Part shown: piece after piece, positions 15,618 through 40,938 of the stretch
Layout of the letters: each line of letters starts with the position of its first letter
Position numbering within the stretch: the first letter of the stretch is position 1
Position numbers and translations under genes: made by a program
Source of the DNA: Promethearchaeota archaeon Loki_b32
GTDB lineage: Archaea; Asgardarchaeota; Lokiarchaeia; Sigyniarchaeales; SOKP01
Assembly (NCBI GenBank): GCA_005223125.1
Contig: NJBH01000022.1
Location: forward strand, 1-61,298
Reading direction: 5' to 3'
DNA: 61,298 bases
Notes under the pieces: model-generated
The model's database searches: none
What the model was told of the DNA's origin: nothing
The model's input: only the letters and a program-made list of their open reading frames with translations

Positions 15618-16619
15618 ATGGCTAAAGTTTTTTTTATATCAAAAAATAATGTTCGAGATGCTTGGTTATCTGCTGTCGGCCAAGTTTTATACAATGGTGA
15701 TGATATTAAAACGGAGTATGATAAGCCAGAAGACCCTCCTTCTAAAGATGCTACAGTTTTAATTGAGGTTAAAGAACCATTAAGTAGTCCTATTATGCGG
15801 AAGGACAAAATATTGAAAATTAAATCAAAATATGGTAATTCTTATGAAATATACGGTTGTATGGCAGATATTTATTTAATAGGTTCTATTCAGAGTGGTT
15901 ATATTGAGGAAATATTCGAAGGAGTAAATGATCATTTCTTATATGATTCAGGTGTAAGTTTTCCATATTCCTATCATGATAGAGTTTTCAACTATGCTCC
16001 TTTCGCTATTGAGGATACTATTCATAAATATTATGATATTGGATTTGTGGATACCGAATTTATCAGAAAGCATCAGAAGTTAGTTAAAGCGGAAAAGATA
16101 AAAACAACAGAAAGCACAGTTATATGGCAACTCAAAGATGGTGTAGAATTTGAATTAGACAAAAAAATATCAGAGAAGATTGGAATAGAAAAAATACCAA
16201 TAGGTATTCTAGATTTTCCAAGAATCAACCAAATTGAATATATAATACAGAAATTAAGAGAAAAGCCATATAGCCGTCGAGCACAAGCAATAACCTGGCG
16301 ACCATTAGTTGATCCTTATCATGTAGATCCTCCCTGTCTCCAGAGAATATATATGCGTATAAAAGATGAGAAATTAATAATGCAAACAACCTGGAGAAGT
16401 AGAGATTTATTCAGAGCATGGGAAGCTAACGTAAATGGGATGATTAAGATTCAAAAATATGTTGCTGACCAATTAAATGTGAGTATAGGCCATTATTTAG
16501 ATTTTAGCAATTCTCTTCATATTTATGGAAATACAATTTCTGAAGTAAAAGATATACTAAATCGTATGAAGACAAGGGGTGAGACATTTCCTCCAGAAAT
16601 TGTCGATCTAATTGATTAA
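15618..16619 (+). CDS. thyA: Thymidylate synthase, ThyA type
   Basis: 333-residue enzyme that methylates dUMP to dTMP with methylenetetrahydrofolate or an archaeal folate analogue. The catalytic cysteine is C240 in VDPPCLQ. The following signatures are RAQAITWRP (221-229), TTWRSRDLFRAWEANVNG (257-274) and GHYLDFSNSLHIY (291-303), with the dUMP-binding arginines and asparagine present. The first 200 residues are divergent, as in archaeal ThyA proteins, and longer than the E. coli enzyme (264 residues). It sits alone, convergent with the TatD gene. Confidence 0.9.
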   Translation: MAKVFFISKNNVRDAWLSAVGQVLYNGDDIKTEYDKPEDPPSKDATVLIEVKEPLSSPIMRKDKILKIKSKYGNSYEIYGCMADIYLIGSIQSGYIEEIFEGVNDHFLYDSGVSFPYSYHDRVFNYAPFAIEDTIHKYYDIGFVDTEFIRKHQKLVKAEKIKTTESTVIWQLKDGVEFELDKKISEKIGIEKIPIGILDFPRINQIEYIIQKLREKPYSRRAQAITWRPLVDPYHVDPPCLQRIYMRIKDEKLIMQTTWRSRDLFRAWEANVNGMIKIQKYVADQLNVSIGHYLDFSNSLHIYGNTISEVKDILNRMKTRGETFPPEIVDLID

Positions 16620-16633
16620 AAAATGGTAATTTC

Positions 16634-17389
16634 TCAAAATATTTTAGGAAAAATAATTTTTGTATTTTCATAGATTTGATTTTCTAATTCTTCGGTGGAG
16701 ATTTCCTTATATTTTGAAACTATTTTTAAAACATCTCTAATCATAGCAGGAGTCCCAATTTTACCTGAGTATTTCACAGGTCCATCACTTTCCAGTAAAA
16801 GATGTTGTTTATCTACTTTTAATACTGTATTTTTAACTGCTGGAGAATAGCTAATAGCAGGAGTAATTGAGAAAAAATAACCTCTATCGATCCCTACATT
16901 CAAAAATTTTTCCGGTCCAGAATACCAGTGGAGATTAACATTGGGAATCTTATATGAAGGAAGCATATCAAAAACAATTTTTTCTGCGCCTTTTGTATGG
17001 AGATTAACAGGTAATTCCAATTCTTGTGCTAATGAAAGCATTTTTTCAAATATTCTCTTTTGAATTGGATATAATTCTTTTTCTTTAACAAAATGATGAT
17101 CCAACCCAATCTCACCTACAGCACAAATATTTTCTTTATTCTTTCTAATCATATCAACCACAGAATCCAATTGTCCTTCAACATCTTTATTCATTTTCAC
17201 TTCTTCAGGATGGATGCCTAATGCTGGATATATAATATCATATATGTTAGAAATTTCTAAAATCCTTTTTTGGCTTAGTACACTCATCCCCACAGAGATT
17301 ATCTTTTGAACCCCTACACTCTTTGCTTCGTTAATAACTTCATCAATAACTAAATAGAGGTTAGCATGACAATGGATATCAATTAGCAT
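16634..17389 (-). CDS. TatD-family metal-dependent hydrolase
   Basis: 251-residue TIM-barrel hydrolase. All the usual metal ligands are visible: H6-x-H8 in DIHCHA, E93 in GEIGLDHH, H131 in NLHTKG, H154 in LHWYSG and D202 in ESDGP. TatD proteins are magnesium-dependent 3'-5' exonucleases or related phosphohydrolases in the cytosol. Length is normal for the family. It is convergent with thyA and separated by only 14 bases. The gene downstream on the genome map (17435-17773) is on the same strand. Confidence 0.87.
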   Translation of the reverse strand: MLIDIHCHANLYLVIDEVINEAKSVGVQKIISVGMSVLSQKRILEISNIYDIIYPALGIHPEEVKMNKDVEGQLDSVVDMIRKNKENICAVGEIGLDHHFVKEKELYPIQKRIFEKMLSLAQELELPVNLHTKGAEKIVFDMLPSYKIPNVNLHWYSGPEKFLNVGIDRGYFFSITPAISYSPAVKNTVLKVDKQHLLLESDGPVKYSGKIGTPAMIRDVLKIVSKYKEISTEELENQIYENTKIIFPKIF

Positions 17390-20119: not shown

Positions 20120-22027
20120 TTGCCGCTACACACGAATCATGATAATTCTGAAATATTGAAAAAATATAATAAAAAACAAGTATCTTTAGAAGATGCTATC
20201 AAAAAATATGTAAAACCAGGAAATCGTATTTTTATCGATTCTGGTTGCTCTGAACCAATTGATCTTACAAAAAAATTAATTGAAATGGGGTTGAATCTTC
20301 CAGATGTAGAGATATTGCATTTTCTTAGCCTTAGCGATCTAGATTATTATGAGACTGCAGGTGGTATTGAAGATTTATTTAGACATAATGCATTTTTTAT
20401 TGGAAAATCATTACGGCAGTATGTTGAGGTTGGTCAAGCTGATTATACTCCAATGCTTCTTTCAGAAATTCCTAAATTATTTAAATCTGGAAAGATGCAT
20501 TTAGATACAGCATTAATTCAAGTTAGTCCTCCAGATAGGTACGGATTTTGTAGTTTTGGGATTAATATTGATATTGTTAAACCAATAGCAGAATCCGCTG
20601 ACTATGTTATAGCAGAAATTAATCCAAAAATGCCTCGTACTTTAGGCGATTCTTTTATTCATATGGATGATATTGACGCATTTGTTCTGAGCAATCATGA
20701 TATTATAGAATTTACATATGGTGAGCTTGATGAAGTTTCTATAAAAATAGCTAAATTTGTTGCTTCTCTAATTGAAGATGAATCTACAATTCAAATGGGA
20801 ATAGGGCAAATTCCTAATGCGGTCACCAAAGAATTAACGGAAAAAAAAGATTTAGGGGTTCATAGCGAAGTATTTTCTGATGGTATCGTGGATCTTGTAG
20901 AAAAGGGCGTTGTAACATGTAAAAAAAAGACACTCCATAAAGATAAGATCATTTGTTCTTTTGTTATGGGTTCCAAAAAGTTATATGATTTTGTTGATGA
21001 TAATCCTATGGTAGAATTCCATCCTTGTGATTATACAAATGATCCTTTTATAATTAGTCGAAATAAAAAACAGGTAGCTATAAATGCTGCCTTAAGTGTT
21101 GATTTGACGGGGCAAGTGAATTCAGATTCTTTAGGTCATCGTTTTTATAGTGGAATTGGAGGTCAAGTAGATTTTGTAAGAGGCGCTGGTAGATCAATAG
21201 AGGGAAAACCAATTATGACTCTACCCTCTACTGCCACTTTAAAAGATGGAACTATTGTATCTCGAATAGTTCCTTACCTTCAACCTGGTTCAGGTGTAGT
21301 AATCACAAGAGGAGAAGTACATTATGTTGTAACTGAATGGGGTATTGCATATCTCTATGGGAAAAGTGTGAGAGAAAGGGTTCTTGAAATGATAAATATC
21401 GCACATCCCGATTTTCGAGAAGAATTACTCGAACACGCAAAAAAATGGAAGTATGTGTATTCAGACCAAAAGTTGCCCATTTCTATTGATGGAAGAATTA
21501 GCGTTTATCCAGAGAAATATAAGACATTATTAAAACTCAAAAATGGAAAAACATTAAAAATCCGTCCTGTAAAACCAACCGATGAGAGAATGATTCAAGA
21601 ACTTCATTATTCTTTAGATGATCAAGATCGGTATTTAAGATTTTTTATTCCTGTAAAGGATTTTCGTCATAAAAAAATCCAACCTATGGTTAATATTGAC
21701 TATTCAACAGATATGATTTTAGTAGGTGAAGTTAGTGAAAAAGGAGAAGAGCAAATTATAGGTTTAGGTGCTTTTTTCAAAACAGTTCAACCTTCTGTTG
21801 CAGAGATAGCATTTGTAGTTCATAAAGATTGGAGAGGGTTAGGAATAACCAAGTTTTTATTAAATTACTTAGTACAAATAGGGAAAGAACTTAATTATAG
21901 GTCGTTTACTGGTTCGATTTTGCTTCAGAACAAACCAATGCTTCATATTATTAATAGTTCGGGATACTTGCTAAAACTTAAGAGAATAGAGGGTGGAGTC
22001 ACCATATTCGCCTTTGATCTTTCTTAA
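20120..22027 (+). CDS. Acetyl-CoA hydrolase/CoA-transferase fused to GNAT
   Basis: 635-residue two-domain protein. Residues 15-445 are an acetyl-CoA hydrolase/4-hydroxybutyrate CoA-transferase-type enzyme (AVTKELTEKKDLGVHSEVFSDG, SGIGGQVDFVRGAG, VVTEWGIAYLYGK). Residues 465-635 are a GNAT acetyltransferase (LKIRPVKPTDERMIQ, IAFVVHKDWRGLGITKFLL with the acetyl-CoA loop). It probably moves CoA between acetate and other acyl groups, with the GNAT part sensing or using acetyl-CoA. The start is TTG, supported by AAGGTGAT a few bases upstream and a TAA just before it in frame. No ATG is available near the conserved N-terminus. Confidence 0.85.
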   Translation: MPLHTNHDNSEILKKYNKKQVSLEDAIKKYVKPGNRIFIDSGCSEPIDLTKKLIEMGLNLPDVEILHFLSLSDLDYYETAGGIEDLFRHNAFFIGKSLRQYVEVGQADYTPMLLSEIPKLFKSGKMHLDTALIQVSPPDRYGFCSFGINIDIVKPIAESADYVIAEINPKMPRTLGDSFIHMDDIDAFVLSNHDIIEFTYGELDEVSIKIAKFVASLIEDESTIQMGIGQIPNAVTKELTEKKDLGVHSEVFSDGIVDLVEKGVVTCKKKTLHKDKIICSFVMGSKKLYDFVDDNPMVEFHPCDYTNDPFIISRNKKQVAINAALSVDLTGQVNSDSLGHRFYSGIGGQVDFVRGAGRSIEGKPIMTLPSTATLKDGTIVSRIVPYLQPGSGVVITRGEVHYVVTEWGIAYLYGKSVRERVLEMINIAHPDFREELLEHAKKWKYVYSDQKLPISIDGRISVYPEKYKTLLKLKNGKTLKIRPVKPTDERMIQELHYSLDDQDRYLRFFIPVKDFRHKKIQPMVNIDYSTDMILVGEVSEKGEEQIIGLGAFFKTVQPSVAEIAFVVHKDWRGLGITKFLLNYLVQIGKELNYRSFTGSILLQNKPMLHIINSSGYLLKLKRIEGGVTIFAFDLS

Positions 22028-34844: not shown

Positions 34845-35816
34845 TTAAGGAGGATATCTCAATTCGTAAATACTTTTACCACCATTAAGCGGTCCTTTAA
34901 TATATGGTTCAATTTCTTTTGGATCTCGTTGAGTAATTCCTTCGATAGGGGGTAACTTTCCTGGTGGAAACATTTTTAATATATCATTAACGAGGCTTTC
35001 CAAATAATCTAGAAATGCTTCAATACCTGGTTTTCCTTTTTCAAATGTAGCTTTACTAGGACATCCAACATGGCCCTCAGGATAAGCAGAAACTTCAATA
35101 GGTCCAAATCCCACTTGACCATACCATTTGATTGGGCGTTGATAAATATTTCCTGCTTTATCTACATGACCTTCTGGCATCCAACCTACATGAGTATTAT
35201 CTTCACATGAATCTATCTTCTTCACCATCTCAGGGAAAAGTGTCATTGAAAAAGAAGTTTCAGCTTCATCTGCATGAATAAAAGGTGTTTCAAATGGACC
35301 TCCATGCTCTTGATCCATACAATGTTGAGGAATTGCGTGATACCAATTGACATTGCATATTACCATAGGTAATTGATAGTTTTTAGCAAATTCGTGTATT
35401 GCACTCGGAATTACATATTCTTGACCATGACCGTTTAATAGTATCATTTTCCTAAAGCCCATATTCCAGCATCCAGCCATCACTGATCTTAATAGAGATT
35501 TAAAAGTCTCTTCGGGAACAATGATAGTCCCTGGCATTCCTAAATGATGATATGGATGCGAACCATACCAAGTTGGTTGAGCAACAGTGCATCCAGTTTT
35601 TTGTGCTACTAATTCCGCCATTCGTGTTACCAAGAAAGTGTCTTCTCCAATACAAGCTGCAGGTCCATGATTTTCAGTTGATCCACAGGGAATGATAATA
35701 ACATCATTCTTTTTTAAGCGTTCATTGATTTCACGAATGGACATTGTTTGAAGATATATACCACTCGGTTTATCCATGTGACCAAATTCTTTGGGAGGTA
35801 AATTCCAGTCTGTCAT
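34845..35816 (-). CDS. iolN: Creatininase-family hydrolase, probable IolN
   Basis: 323-residue enzyme of the creatininase superfamily. Metal-binding motifs are PCGSTENHGPAACIGEDTF, NGHGQE and HADEAETSF, in the family's spacing. In Thermotoga maritima a protein of this superfamily (IolN) opens the ring of the diketo-inositol made by IolM, giving 5-keto-L-gluconate. Here it sits with clear IolM, IolO and IolG homologues, so the same step is likely. A generic creatinine amidohydrolase is the alternative but has no supporting context. It is divergent from iolO across a region with an inverted repeat. Confidence 0.72.
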   Translation of the reverse strand: MTDWNLPPKEFGHMDKPSGIYLQTMSIREINERLKKNDVIIIPCGSTENHGPAACIGEDTFLVTRMAELVAQKTGCTVAQPTWYGSHPYHHLGMPGTIIVPEETFKSLLRSVMAGCWNMGFRKMILLNGHGQEYVIPSAIHEFAKNYQLPMVICNVNWYHAIPQHCMDQEHGGPFETPFIHADEAETSFSMTLFPEMVKKIDSCEDNTHVGWMPEGHVDKAGNIYQRPIKWYGQVGFGPIEVSAYPEGHVGCPSKATFEKGKPGIEAFLDYLESLVNDILKMFPPGKLPPIEGITQRDPKEIEPYIKGPLNGGKSIYELRYPP

Positions 35817-36137
35817 ATTTCTATATCATCATTCAGAAAATTTAAATTTATTATTACTATTTGCTTAAATTAAATATGAACTAATTATGTAAGCTTTTTT
35901 TTATTTTTTAATTTAAACGGCATACCCGTTTAGTTTAAATTATTATATATGGTTTTTGAATCAGTACGCAAAACTCTCTTATTGAATAAACCTCTTTTTA
36001 GGAGGTAATTCCCATTTACTCATTTTATTTCACATGAAAAAATCTATATATAAATAAATGATCCATTAGTTTAAACTCTTAAAGTATTAAATTAATATTG
36101 TTATATTAGTAAATTTCTATTCTATAAGGAAAAGACG
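35817..36137. other. iolN-iolO divergent intergenic region
   Basis: 321 bases with no gene. It contains the inverted repeat described at 35911-35940 and an isolated palindrome GTTTAAAC at 36069-36076. Both promoters should lie here. TAAGGAAAAGACG before ATG 36138 is the likely ribosome binding region of iolO. Confidence 0.4.
35911..35940. promoter_or_regulatory. Candidate operator between iolN and iolO
   Basis: ATTTAAAC and GTTTAAAT form perfect 8-base arms around 14 bases. A second inner pair (AAACGG at 35915-35920, CCGTTT at 35926-35931) overlaps them. The dense two-fold symmetry in a divergent catabolic promoter region suggests a repressor or activator site. GTTTAAAC recurs at 36069-36076, nearer to iolO. 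No regulator gene is adjacent. Confidence 0.45.
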
Positions 36138-36950
36138 ATGAAATTAAGCATTGTTTCTGAATTAAATGAAACCAGAAATTCCCAAGATGAGATAATAAAG
36201 AATTTTTCAAGGTTATGTGAATTTTTAAAGTCTTTAAACTATGATGGAATTGAACTTTCGCTACTGGAACCGGAAAAAATTGATGCCAAAAGGTTAAATG
36301 AAATTAGAGATTCATACAACTTAGAAATCTCTGCTATTGGAACAGGAAGTACTTATATTCGTTTTGGTTATTCTTTAGGACATCAAAACGAACAGATAAG
36401 GAATAAAGCAATTAAAAGGATTGAGACATATATAGATTTTGCTCAAGAACTCCAATCCAAAGTTATTATTGGTTTAATTCGAGGACGGTATAATTATGAC
36501 AGTAGTTATAAAAAGGAAAAGTATAATATCAAAAGTTCCTTAAGAGAGTGTTGCCAGTTAGCAGAAAAAAATGGAGTTATGTTGTTATTTGAACCAATTA
36601 ATAGATTTGAAATCGATTCATATAATACAATTTCCGAATCAGTAAATTTAATAGAAGAAATTGACTCAAATTATTTAAAATTGTTAATCGATTCTTACCA
36701 TACGTATTTAGAAGAAGATCCCGGTTTTATTTGGGATTATTTAAAAGAGATTACTCAACATGTTGCTCATTTACATTTAGCAGATTGTACTCGTCGAGCT
36801 CCGGGCACAGGTCATTTTGATTTTAGAACTTTTTTGAATATCTTTAAAAATGCTGGCTATAATGGATTTGCTTCAATAGAAACTATAATGAAACCATCTT
36901 TTGAAGAAGTTGCTAAACAAACGTCAGAATATTTAAGACTAATTTTGTAA
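36138..36950 (+). CDS. iolO: IolO-like sugar acid epimerase (TIM barrel)
   Basis: 270-residue TIM-barrel protein of the xylose-isomerase-like sugar isomerase/epimerase group. From memory it matches T. maritima TM0416 closely (SAIGTGSTYI, HQNEQIRNKAIKR, VIIGLIRGR, then ADCTRRAPGTGHFDFR). TM0416 (IolO) converts 5-keto-L-gluconate to D-tagaturonate. Visible ligands include the glutamate of LFEPINR, D and H of LIDSYH, HLADC and the final SIETI glutamate. It is divergent from iolN and convergent with iolM. It is the epimerase of the inositol cluster. Confidence 0.82.
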   Translation: MKLSIVSELNETRNSQDEIIKNFSRLCEFLKSLNYDGIELSLLEPEKIDAKRLNEIRDSYNLEISAIGTGSTYIRFGYSLGHQNEQIRNKAIKRIETYIDFAQELQSKVIIGLIRGRYNYDSSYKKEKYNIKSSLRECCQLAEKNGVMLLFEPINRFEIDSYNTISESVNLIEEIDSNYLKLLIDSYHTYLEEDPGFIWDYLKEITQHVAHLHLADCTRRAPGTGHFDFRTFLNIFKNAGYNGFASIETIMKPSFEEVAKQTSEYLRLIL

Positions 36951-37039
36951 AATAAAAAGAATAAAATATGAGTTATTTAATATCGATTACTTGCTTTTCA
37001 TTAAGTTTTACTGTTTTTTTAGGAACAATCTGTACTAAT

Positions 37040-38218
37040 TTAATCAATTTTAACTGAGATTTTACAGTTTTCTTTGTCAGTTTGTAAAAGTTTAAGGTAT
37101 TCAGGAACCTCATCAAGTAAGATTTCTTTTGTGATCATTGGAGTCATATCCATTTCTGCTGCCATGCAATTAATAACATTAGGAAAATTGCCGTGACCAG
37201 AATGACCTTGAGATCCGATAATGCGTGCTCTCCTTACTTGGAAATATTCACCACAAACGGGCATATTTTGTTCTGCTCTTGCTACGATAACTACAGTGCT
37301 ATTAACTGCCTTACATTCCCATATAGCATTTTGTATATCATCTGTTACAATATCTGGTAAACCTGTAGCTTCAAGATATAAAGCAGCTCCTTCATTATCA
37401 GTATATTCTTTAATTTTTTCAAGGAAATTGTCTTTTAGTGGATTTATCACATAATCAGCACCCATTTCTTTAGCTAGTGATGCTCGGCTATCTTCAGGTT
37501 CTGAAACAATACATAGAGCTGCTCCAGCCATCTTTAGAATTTTAACTGCTGCTAAACCAATAGGCCCATTCCCCAGAATTACTACATTTTCCCCTGGTCG
37601 AATTCCACCACCTCTTTCAATAACCGCATTATATGCCACTGAAGTTGGTTCTACTAAACTCCCTATCTTAAAAATATCATCATACTTATCTTTCAATTTC
37701 TTTAAACTCCAGCATAATTTGGCTGGAACTGCAATATATTCAGCATAAGCACCATCAATAGAAAAACCAATTTCTTGTAATCTTTCACAATGATTTGGGT
37801 AACCATCACAACAAGGTTTACATTCTCCGCACCAGACCATTTCTTCAACTGTTACAGGTTCTCCTTTTTCATATAGCATTCCAGTTCTTTTATTAATTGC
37901 TTGACTTCCAACTTCAACAACTTCGCCAGCAAACTCATGTCCAAGGGTTACTGGAAAGGCTGTTAATCCTGGATAATATATATATCCGTCTTCATGTGTT
38001 TGGAGCATATGCACATCGGATCCACATATTCCGCATCTTTTTAACTTGATCAATACTTCATTTGGTTTAATATGGGGTTTTGGTTTCTCTACTATTTCAA
38101 CAACAGGATTACGCCAAACTTGTGAACCTAAGTAAGTCAGTTTTCCTTCTGAATCTTTAGAACCTAAAGTAAATTCTGGTTTAGGGTCCCATTTAGCTTT
38201 AATTTGTACAGTTTTCAT
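37040..38218 (-). CDS. iolM: scyllo-Inosose 3-dehydrogenase (zinc alcohol dehydrogenase family)
   Basis: 392-residue medium-chain dehydrogenase. The catalytic zinc site begins at CGICGSDVH, the structural zinc site is CGECKPCCDGYPNHC, and NAD binds at GNGPIGLAAVKILKMAGA. Long stretches resemble T. maritima TM0412 (IolM): the N-terminal KWDPKPEF, YPGLTAFPVTLGHEFAGEV, GSLVEPTSVAYNAVIERGGGIRPG and QVRRARIIGSQGHSGHG. IolM oxidises scyllo-inosose, the product of IolG, at carbon 3. Cofactor NAD is inferred from the family. It lies downstream of the transporter gene on the same strand. Confidence 0.88.
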   Translation of the reverse strand: MKTVQIKAKWDPKPEFTLGSKDSEGKLTYLGSQVWRNPVVEIVEKPKPHIKPNEVLIKLKRCGICGSDVHMLQTHEDGYIYYPGLTAFPVTLGHEFAGEVVEVGSQAINKRTGMLYEKGEPVTVEEMVWCGECKPCCDGYPNHCERLQEIGFSIDGAYAEYIAVPAKLCWSLKKLKDKYDDIFKIGSLVEPTSVAYNAVIERGGGIRPGENVVILGNGPIGLAAVKILKMAGAALCIVSEPEDSRASLAKEMGADYVINPLKDNFLEKIKEYTDNEGAALYLEATGLPDIVTDDIQNAIWECKAVNSTVVIVARAEQNMPVCGEYFQVRRARIIGSQGHSGHGNFPNVINCMAAEMDMTPMITKEILLDEVPEYLKLLQTDKENCKISVKID

Positions 38219-38334
38219 TTTACTTATATTTATAAAAAGAAATAATTAACTTATTTAGTGTAATTAAAGAAAGAAAAAAATTTTTTTTAAATTTCTTGGA
38301 AAAAAAAATATTGAGAAAAATTTTTAGATATTGG

Positions 38335-39735
38335 TTATGTTGTACTACTTTTCTTTATATTGTGCAATTCAGTTAATTTTTTTCTGTTTTCTCTAAGTCT
38401 TTCTCCTTTAATTGGATAGAAATACATACCCACCAGAGAAATCGCTAAGACAATTGCTGGGTAAATTCCCATTAAAATTCGAAGTCCTAAAATGGGGTCT
38501 GCACCCGGATTTGGTTCATAGTTCATCCAATCTGACGCTGTAAAAACCAAACTAATAATTACGAAATTAAGGATCATTGATAATCTAATAAGAAAATTAA
38601 GAACTGCATAGTAAATACCAGATCGTCGAACTCCGTATGTGATTTCATCCTCATCGATTATTTCTGCAATACATTGATCGTAAAAGTAAAGTCCTCCTCC
38701 TAATCCTATTCCAAGGAAAATCATACAGATTAAGGCCATTTCAAAATTAATTGAATATGCAAAAAACAATACCGATACTAAAAATACCACAATTCCTATC
38801 AAGCCACACATTCGAGCACCTTTCTTAACTCTTATCCTCTCCCATAAAGGAGTAGCTGCAGCAGAAACAAGAAACATAATTAAAAGTAGTATTCCTATTA
38901 ATTCTGTATCCTTAATCCCAACAGCATAGGTAAAAAAAAGTGGCGATAATGTTGGTAAAATATTTATTACAAGCCAGGTACCGAGAGCAGGGAATAAAAA
39001 TAGTAAAAACGATTTGTGTTTAAATGTAAATTTTAATGTATTTGTGAAAGACATAGCAGATTCTGCATCCTTTGAAATATGTTTAGGATCTCTGACTCCC
39101 CATTTAAGAATTATAAAATAAAAAATAAAGATAATAATTGCTGCTACGACCCCAGAAATTAGATATTGAGTTAAAGTAGATGGATCGTTGTTTATATTAG
39201 TAATATCCTCAATTACTAAAGTGGGTAAAACCAGAGCGAGCATTGTTGCAAGCAATACAAAAATTATACGTATTCTTCCAGTTGCACTACGCTCTCTCAT
39301 ATCAACAAACATTTCAGAAAAAAGTGCATTGTAGTTCAAATTAAATGAAGTATATGCTATATCAAATAGTATCATTATTATGAAGAAGTAAATAAAAACA
39401 GATTCATCTTGACTATAAGTGGACGGGGGAGTAAATAATAATATCATTAGAACACCAAGTGGGATAGTAGCACCTAGCATCCATGGAATCCTACGTCCCC
39501 ATCTACTTTTTGTTCTATCAGAAAGATACCCAATTAAGGGATCATTAAAAGCATTCCATAGAGCCCATAGTATAAATCCTAAAGTCATTAAGGGAGTAGG
39601 TATCCTCACCACAGTGAAGTAAAAAGTAAAAATTAAAAAAGTAAACGTGTTTAAAGCCATATTATCTCCAACTTCTCCACATGCAAAAGCTAATTTCGTT
39701 CGCAGAGATATTTTTCTGGATTCATTTTCATTCAT
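38335..39735 (-). CDS. GPH-family cation/sugar symporter, probable inositol transporter
   Basis: About 466 residues with twelve membrane helices. The loop SDRTKSRWGRRIPWM after helix 2 is diagnostic of the glycoside-pentoside-hexuronide (MelB/GPH) family, which imports sugars with sodium or protons. The location between iolM and iolG points to inositol or a related polyol as substrate. ATG 39735 is chosen over an in-frame GTG at 39750 because GGAAGTGA, close to the consensus, lies 11 bases before the ATG. It is divergent from iolG and shares a promoter region of about 180 bases with it. Confidence 0.85.
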   Translation of the reverse strand: MNENESRKISLRTKLAFACGEVGDNMALNTFTFLIFTFYFTVVRIPTPLMTLGFILWALWNAFNDPLIGYLSDRTKSRWGRRIPWMLGATIPLGVLMILLFTPPSTYSQDESVFIYFFIIMILFDIAYTSFNLNYNALFSEMFVDMRERSATGRIRIIFVLLATMLALVLPTLVIEDITNINNDPSTLTQYLISGVVAAIIIFIFYFIILKWGVRDPKHISKDAESAMSFTNTLKFTFKHKSFLLFLFPALGTWLVINILPTLSPLFFTYAVGIKDTELIGILLLIMFLVSAAATPLWERIRVKKGARMCGLIGIVVFLVSVLFFAYSINFEMALICMIFLGIGLGGGLYFYDQCIAEIIDEDEITYGVRRSGIYYAVLNFLIRLSMILNFVIISLVFTASDWMNYEPNPGADPILGLRILMGIYPAIVLAISLVGMYFYPIKGERLRENRKKLTELHNIKKSSTT

Positions 39736-39912
39736 AAAATCATTTCTCACTTCCTATAGATTTTTATTTTAAAACCATTTTTTTTTTATGTGAAATGCTA
39801 AAATTAAATATGATTAAATATTTGATATTTCACTTTAAATAAATTTCGTTAATTAGGTTTTTTTTCTAAATTTTTGAAATTTAAATAATTAAAAGTTTGT
39901 GTGGGATAAATA

Positions 39913-40938
39913 ATGACAAATTTTTTCACAGTTGGAGTAATTGGAGCCGGTAGAATTGGAAAAATACATATCGAAAATCTATTAAGCAAAATAGCTTATG
40001 TTAATTTAAAAATTGTGGCTGATATTAATATAAACGATAAATTAAGACAATGGGCAGAAGAAAAAGGTGTACCAAAACTCACTACCGATGCATATGAAAT
40101 CTTGAATGATCCTGAAATTGAAATAGTAATAATTTGCTCGCCTACAGATACTCACGCTAAATTTATTCAGGAAGCTGCCAAGGCGAAAAAACATGTCTTT
40201 TGTGAGAAACCAATTGATACGGATATAATGCGGATTAAAGAAACACTTTCAGTTGTTAAAGAAACAGAGGTAAAACTCATGGTGGGATTTAATCGACGTT
40301 TTGATCGTAATTTTATGAGATGTTATGAATCAGTCGCTTCTGGTCAAATAGGTGAACCTCAAATTGTTAAAATTACTTCTCGAGACCCCGCTCCCCCTCC
40401 CATAGAGTATATAAAAGTATCGGGAGGTATTTTTCTTGATATGACTATTCATGATTGGGATATGGCAAGATTCCAAGCTGGAAGTGAGGTGGAAGAAGTC
40501 TATGCAACAGGAGCGGTACTTATCGATCCTGAAATTGGGAAAGCAGGAGATATAGATACGGCTGTATCTGTTTTAAAATTTAAAAACGGAGCAATGGGAA
40601 TAATTGATAACACTCGTCAAGCAGTTTATGGATATGATCAACGTGTTGAAGTATTTGGTTCTAAAGGATGTGTTGTTGCTGATAATGAGGCTACTAATAC
40701 TGTCCGTATTTATACTGCTGAATGTATTAAAATTGACAAGATTCCATACTTTTTCATGGAAAGATATTTAGAATCTTATTCCACTGAATTGGAATATTTC
40801 TTTGAATGCTTGCGTAAAAATATAGATCCTAAGCCTGACGGGGAAGATGGTTTACAAAATGTTCTAGTAGCATTAGCCGCTCAGAAATCTTATGAAGAAA
40901 ATCGTCCTGTAAAGATTTCTGAGGTCGAAAAGTATTAA
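39913..40938 (+). CDS. iolG: myo-Inositol 2-dehydrogenase
   Basis: 341-residue Gfo/Idh/MocA-family oxidoreductase. The Rossmann motif GVIGAGRIGKIHIENL is at the N-terminus, the catalytic lysine is in CEKPID, and DMTIHDWDMARF carries the histidine and aspartate typical of inositol 2-dehydrogenases. The enzyme oxidises myo-inositol to scyllo-inosose with NAD, the first step of the pathway served by the neighbouring genes. Length matches family members. It is divergent from the transporter gene. Confidence 0.88.
   Translation: MTNFFTVGVIGAGRIGKIHIENLLSKIAYVNLKIVADININDKLRQWAEEKGVPKLTTDAYEILNDPEIEIVIICSPTDTHAKFIQEAAKAKKHVFCEKPIDTDIMRIKETLSVVKETEVKLMVGFNRRFDRNFMRCYESVASGQIGEPQIVKITSRDPAPPPIEYIKVSGGIFLDMTIHDWDMARFQAGSEVEEVYATGAVLIDPEIGKAGDIDTAVSVLKFKNGAMGIIDNTRQAVYGYDQRVEVFGSKGCVVADNEATNTVRIYTAECIKIDKIPYFFMERYLESYSTELEYFFECLRKNIDPKPDGEDGLQNVLVALAAQKSYEENRPVKISEVEKY

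Follow-up and report, generated by a model that had tools for sequence, protein, structure and literature searches.

Does the lokiarchaeon Loki_b32 carry the myo-inositol pathway of Thermotoga maritima and, if so, how far does that pathway run? The question was raised by five neighbouring genes in the window, that is, the whole 61,298-nucleotide stretch of DNA that we analysed, which a preliminary description had called a complete Thermotoga-type inositol cluster in an archaeal genome. The T. maritima pathway and its TM0411-TM0416 operon are attributed to Rodionova et al. 2013 (Environ. Microbiol., as cited in PMC3750489 and PMC5931981).

The window corresponds to contig C29 of a metagenome-assembled genome (MAG) of the Lokiarchaeia (4.13 Mb, 95.5% complete). 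Gene-by-gene comparison showed that its flanking genes are up to 97% identical to those of same-genus genomes and stand in the same order, and the nearest IolN proteins among named genomes were those of Lokiarchaeota MAGs. The archaeal attribution was thus borne out, and a contaminant origin of the cluster was rejected because both flanks are syntenic with congeners. A gene at positions 20120-22024 of the window, encoding an acetyl-CoA hydrolase/transferase fused to a GNAT domain, is also kept in the congeners.

The five-gene cluster

Equivalog calls were made from NCBIfam profile scores against the NCBI cut-offs, with Pfam profiles in addition. Between positions 34845 and 40938, all five open reading frames are intact and run in the order IolN, IolO, IolM, GPH-type symporter, IolG (Table 1); together with the family scores, this upholds the earlier view that these five genes stand together.

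Table 1. Positions, strands and supporting evidence of the features discussed, in window coordinates
Feature	Positions	Strand	Evidence
Thymidylate synthase (+) and TatD (-) genes, adjacent; site of UxuA-UxuB in G010 and G015, empty here	15618..17389		Gene-by-gene comparison, congener order
IolN, 3-dehydro-scyllo-inosose (diketo-inositol) hydrolase, creatininase fold, 323 aa	34845..35816	-	NF041098 514 bits, cut-off 245
IolO, 5-keto-L-gluconate 4-epimerase candidate, 270 aa	36138..36950	+	NF041099 235 bits, below cut-off 300
IolM, scyllo-inosose 3-dehydrogenase, zinc MDR, 392 aa	37040..38218	-	NF041097 503 bits, cut-off 450
GPH/MFS-type sugar symporter, candidate inositol importer, 471 aa	38335..39750	-	Pfam MFS_2 202 bits; TIGR00792 181 bits
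IolG, myo-inositol 2-dehydrogenase, 341 aa	39913..40938	+	TIGR04380 459 bits, cut-off 355

The search of solved structures gave 3ip1 as the top match of IolM (570 bits, 63% identity) and 3ezy as that of IolG (377 bits, 53% identity), which we take to be T. maritima TM0412 (IolM) and TM0414 (IolG), respectively, while IolN matched creatininase-family chains only. In alignments of homologues, the zinc motifs of IolM and residues K99, D176 and H180 of IolG were conserved. Among 102 IolN homologues, the metal ligands E48, H50, D59 and H130 were conserved, as was the HADEAETS motif, in which A185 alone is clearly variable. Residues E152, D185, H213 and E248 of IolO were invariant in 77 aligned rows. 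The conserved residues of these four enzymes have established catalytic or metal-binding roles in their folds. For the transporter, the top NCBIfam family was the GPH subfamily TIGR00792, at a score below its cut-off of 231.35 bits.

The top solved structure for IolO was 2zvr, T. maritima TM0416 (155 bits, 37% identity), and the next-best NCBIfam family after NF041099 was D-psicose 3-epimerase, at 101 bits against 235. The 300-bit cut-off was missed by eight of the ten other cluster-linked IolO proteins tested and reached by two; a sub-threshold score is common in this family. Long matches to TM0412 and TM0416 had been proposed for IolM and IolO. The first agrees with the 63% identity of IolM to 3ip1; for IolO the match does span most of the protein, at an identity of 37%. 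A protein 35% identical to T. maritima IolO has been shown to have the epimerase activity (PMC12632266).

Taken together, the family scores, the best solved relatives, the conserved catalytic residues, the recurrent clustering and the co-occurrence of UxaE, UxuA and UxuB with IolN (both described below) make it likely, with a probability of about 0.8, that these genes represent a Thermotoga-type myo-inositol catabolic module that has long been held in the Lokiarchaeia.

Distribution and history of the gene set

IolN scored above its cut-off in 34 of the 97 related genomes that were sampled for presence and absence. A scan of one genome per species over 84,980 species found 265 stretches with IolN relatives, the best 80 of which came from Lokiarchaeota, Njordarchaeum, Bathyarchaeota, a Nitrososphaeria archaeon, Bacillota, Armatimonadetes, Chloroflexi and others; IolN relatives are also present in many anaerobic bacteria. 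With IolN in a third of the relatives and spread among archaea and bacteria, the set is neither confined to Thermotoga nor peculiar to the Loki_b32 genome. The iol genes cluster recurrently in Lokiarchaeia, Bathyarchaeota and bacteria, and IolN adjoins UxaE, or sits within one or two genes of it, in Lokiarchaea, Aerophobetes, Anaerolineae and Bacillota. Since many independent loci show these genes side by side, their clustering is not due to chance.

Quick trees were built for IolM, IolN and IolO, with SH-aLRT as the sole measure of support. The Lokiarchaeal IolM proteins formed one clade (14 rows, SH-aLRT 100), which grouped with those of T. maritima, Bacillota and Aerophobetes (SH-aLRT 100), while Bathyarchaeal, Njordarchaeal and Chloroflexi IolM fell apart from this group. 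On this evidence the Loki_b32 IolM is of the Thermotoga type. Most Lokiarchaeal IolN proteins also formed one clade (25 rows, SH-aLRT 99), with deeper branches unresolved and with a divergent type, represented in G034, and a distant copy from Zod (L089) outside it; Lokiarchaeal IolO formed one clade of 20 rows (SH-aLRT 99). At the level of the genus, the gene order is c7, Roadblock-like c5 and c4, followed by IolN, IolO, IolM, transporter, IolG, c9, c15 and PatB. From the single IolM clade, the mostly single IolN clade and the gene order common to the genus, we infer that the set is old in the Lokiarchaeia. The proposal that it was gained and rearranged, understood as a gain private to Loki_b32, is not supported in view of the same clades and the same genus-wide order. 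The simplest reading would be an old transfer, for IolM probably from a bacterial source, after which the genes descended vertically and were lost repeatedly.

At this locus, six genomes (G002, G004, G006, G009, G014 and G018) retain IolG and the transporter within largely preserved flanks but lack IolM, IolO and IolN, and none of the six had an IolN above the cut-off anywhere in the genome. Loci L141, L142, L143, L144, L147 and L150 are congener loci of this composition. As IolG and the transporter remain paired in congeners without IolN, they may have another role. Mapped onto the IolG tree, IolN changes between presence and absence at least five times. Several relatives have the transporter between IolM and IolG, whereas others have a different MFS type there. 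Among side observations on cluster content, LAGLIDADG-type endonuclease-like reading frames, recognised by eye, are inserted within the iol cluster at L040:6020-7432 (G007) and L054:8066-9727 (G057), and very long proteins lie beside IolO at L046:6051-8978 (G030, 976 aa) and L145:13251-16238 (G022, 996 aa), the latter with no Pfam match.

The presence of IolG, which is shared with the classical Bacillus-type pathway (IolE, IolD, IolB), could also mean that the cluster belongs to that pathway, and classical IolE (TIGR04379) does occur in four genomes of the same order (G063, G065, G069 and G072). In two of these, at L148 (G063) and L149 (G065), it adjoins IolG, as in a classical IolE-type inositol pathway. 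None of the four has IolN, and IolE was found neither in Loki_b32 nor in any IolN-containing genome. The Bacillus-type pathway is refuted in Loki_b32 for the tested marker, IolE, and we consider this explanation extremely improbable.

A proposed route from inositol to tagaturonate and beyond

Family membership and conserved active sites suggest the following route. After predicted uptake by the symporter, myo-inositol would be oxidised to scyllo-inosose by IolG and further to diketo-inositol by IolM; IolN would open the ring by hydrolysis to give 5-keto-L-gluconate, which IolO would epimerise to D-tagaturonate. Down to tagaturonate, the enzyme set probably works as it does in T. maritima.

The first enzyme may vary among relatives. 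IolG above the cut-off was absent from 20 of the 34 IolN-positive genomes, and several clusters elsewhere have a zinc dehydrogenase of roughly 350 aa at its position, which makes this protein a candidate for an alternative first enzyme. Bathyarchaeota, the Asgard MAG LC30 and Bacillota have IolM, the same kind of zinc dehydrogenase, IolN and IolO without IolG. Such dehydrogenases lie near IolM at L042:2772-3827 (G005), where IolG's place is occupied, L052:6805-7860 and L058:2725-3789.

The Loki_b32 genome also holds, at C22:66000-70000 (L177 28-3157), a full-length homologue of inositol-3-phosphate synthase (MIPS) between two ITPK-like (Ins134_P3_kin) genes. Profile PF07994 gave weak matches, and the real homologue was revealed by PF01658 and by reading of the open reading frames; its top PDB match was 1gr0 (274 bits). 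The three genes form a possible small inositol-phosphate cluster; ITPKs are already known in Lokiarchaeota (PMC8024741). Given the MIPS gene, the cell may produce inositol itself in addition to importing it. Eukaryotic debris or phytate, named in the preliminary description, would be a possible external source. The iol cluster could accordingly serve another cyclitol, or recycle the cell's own inositol, instead of supporting growth on external inositol; the kinase genes beside MIPS and the many IolN-positive genomes without IolG, whose entry substrate may vary, are in line with this. In Loki_b32, however, IolG exceeds its equivalog cut-off and has a sugar symporter beside it, and we regard this alternative as unlikely.

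In T. maritima, tagaturonate is processed by UxaE, UxuB and UxuA. The same enzymes are found mainly where IolN is present: among the 97 relatives, UxaE (PF16257) was found in 12 (10 IolN-positive and 2 IolN-negative; Fisher p 4e-4), Lokiarchaeal-type UxuA in 11 IolN-positive and 1 IolN-negative (p 3e-5) and SDR-type UxuB in 9 IolN-positive and 1 IolN-negative (p 3e-4), all three tests being uncorrected for kinship. PF04295, a family that includes altronate dehydratase, was present in 25 of 34 IolN-positive genomes and 24 of 63 others (p 0.001 overall, 0.07 within the family). In G059 and G054, IolN, UxaE, UxaC, UxuA, UxuB, IolM and IolO lie in one cluster. Relatives would thus carry tagaturonate through UxaE, SDR-type UxuB and UxuA to 2-keto-3-deoxygluconate or, perhaps, reduce it to altronate for dehydration by a PF04295 enzyme to the same product; judged by their gene content, other Lokiarchaeia do complete the route. 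At L048:1491-6172 (G013), bzd-type benzoyl-CoA reductase genes (N, O, Q) lie beside UxaE, UxuA and UxuB.

In the Loki_b32 genome, profile searches did not find UxaE (PF16257), which could be missed in a MAG that is 95.5% complete, nor SDR-type UxuB (NF006132), mannitol-dehydrogenase-type UxuB/UxaB (PF08125) or the altronate dehydratase family PF04295. A search for tagaturonate and fructuronate enzymes had been proposed as a check, with the lack of any onward route as grounds for refutation; the known enzymes searched for were not found here, though relatives have them. Two congeners, G010 and G015, carry UxuA-UxuB between a TatD gene and a thymidylate synthase gene. The corresponding pair in the window (15618-16616 and 16637-17389) stands about 20 bases apart with nothing in between, so missing data are an unlikely reason for the absence of UxuA-UxuB. 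The description of the pathway as complete is therefore sustained as far as tagaturonate and fails beyond it, where UxaE, the UxuB forms and PF04295 were not found; for the Loki_b32 genome, "complete" goes beyond the evidence. Because the known enzymes after tagaturonate were not found, growth of Loki_b32 on inositol is plausible and we put it no higher. One study saw no growth of T. maritima itself on inositol (PMC3750489).

Two leads, and leads only, to substitutes in the onward route were obtained. A divergent UxuA-like protein of 298 aa, below both mannonate dehydratase cut-offs, is encoded on C13 (L039:313-1206), a putative contig of this organism (GC 32% against 29%), and C36 encodes one enolase-superfamily acid-sugar dehydratase (L167:7713-8807), closest to archaeal arabinonate dehydratase and far below the cut-off of that family. 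The IlvD/EDD family was rejected as a source of a sugar-acid dehydratase, the sole copy being a true dihydroxy-acid dehydratase above the cut-offs, near a TPP-enzyme gene.

Four further IolN-positive genomes (G007, G026, G050 and G064) are without a known onward enzyme. One explanation is that the enzymes work as in Thermotoga on a route that can no longer be completed, the downstream genes having been lost, so that the cluster is a decaying remnant or makes tagaturonate for export or another use. The lack of UxaE, UxuB and PF04295 in the genome, the empty UxuA-UxuB site and the absence of IolM, IolO and IolN at the syntenic locus of six congeners fit such loss, which we nevertheless judge somewhat unlikely: none of the five reading frames is disrupted and the active sites are conserved, a MAG of this completeness may lack single genes, and the gap shared by the four other genomes agrees better with a common unknown route than with independent decay. 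Tentatively, we consider it possible that tagaturonate or 5-keto-L-gluconate is consumed in Loki_b32 and these four genomes by unrecognised enzymes, such as a zinc or SDR dehydrogenase combined with the C36 dehydratase. If true, the lower half of this inositol pathway would be new.

Comparison with known systems

We found no paper on inositol catabolism in the Lokiarchaeia in a literature search that covered few subscription journals. The Lokiarchaeia, close kin of eukaryotes, would gain from the Thermotoga-type module a defined anaerobic route from inositol to sugar-acid metabolism, beside their known inositol-phosphate kinases. Its lower half is a testable gap, given the patchy losses and swaps: IolG is replaced, IolM, IolO and IolN go missing where IolG and the transporter are kept, and UxaE and UxuAB vary.

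Comparison with T. maritima showed that IolG, IolM and IolN, and probably IolO, are shared, with 63% identity for IolM and 53% for IolG. As the preliminary description had said, order and strands are unlike those of Thermotoga: the Loki_b32 genes stand in a different order and on mixed strands. The Loki_b32 cluster has a GPH symporter whereas Thermotoga has the InoEFGK ABC transporter, and neither InoEFGK nor the ROK regulator IolR nor the PPi-dependent kinase (TM0415) was seen among the genes between 34309 and 43412. UxaE and UxuB were not found in the Loki_b32 genome, and UxuA is represented by the divergent C13 homologue alone.

The clusters of G059 (L043/L114) and G054 (L064) share with Loki_b32 the same IolM, IolN and IolO clades, but differ in the addition of UxaE, UxaC, UxuA and SDR-type UxuB and in the absence of any IolG above the cut-off from their genomes. 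The L-glucose/L-galactose pathway of Luteolibacter LG18 (PMC12632266) shares the step from 5-keto-L-gluconate to D-tagaturonate and an IolO homologue, but it is entered from L-gluconate and left by altronate, and is not an inositol pathway.
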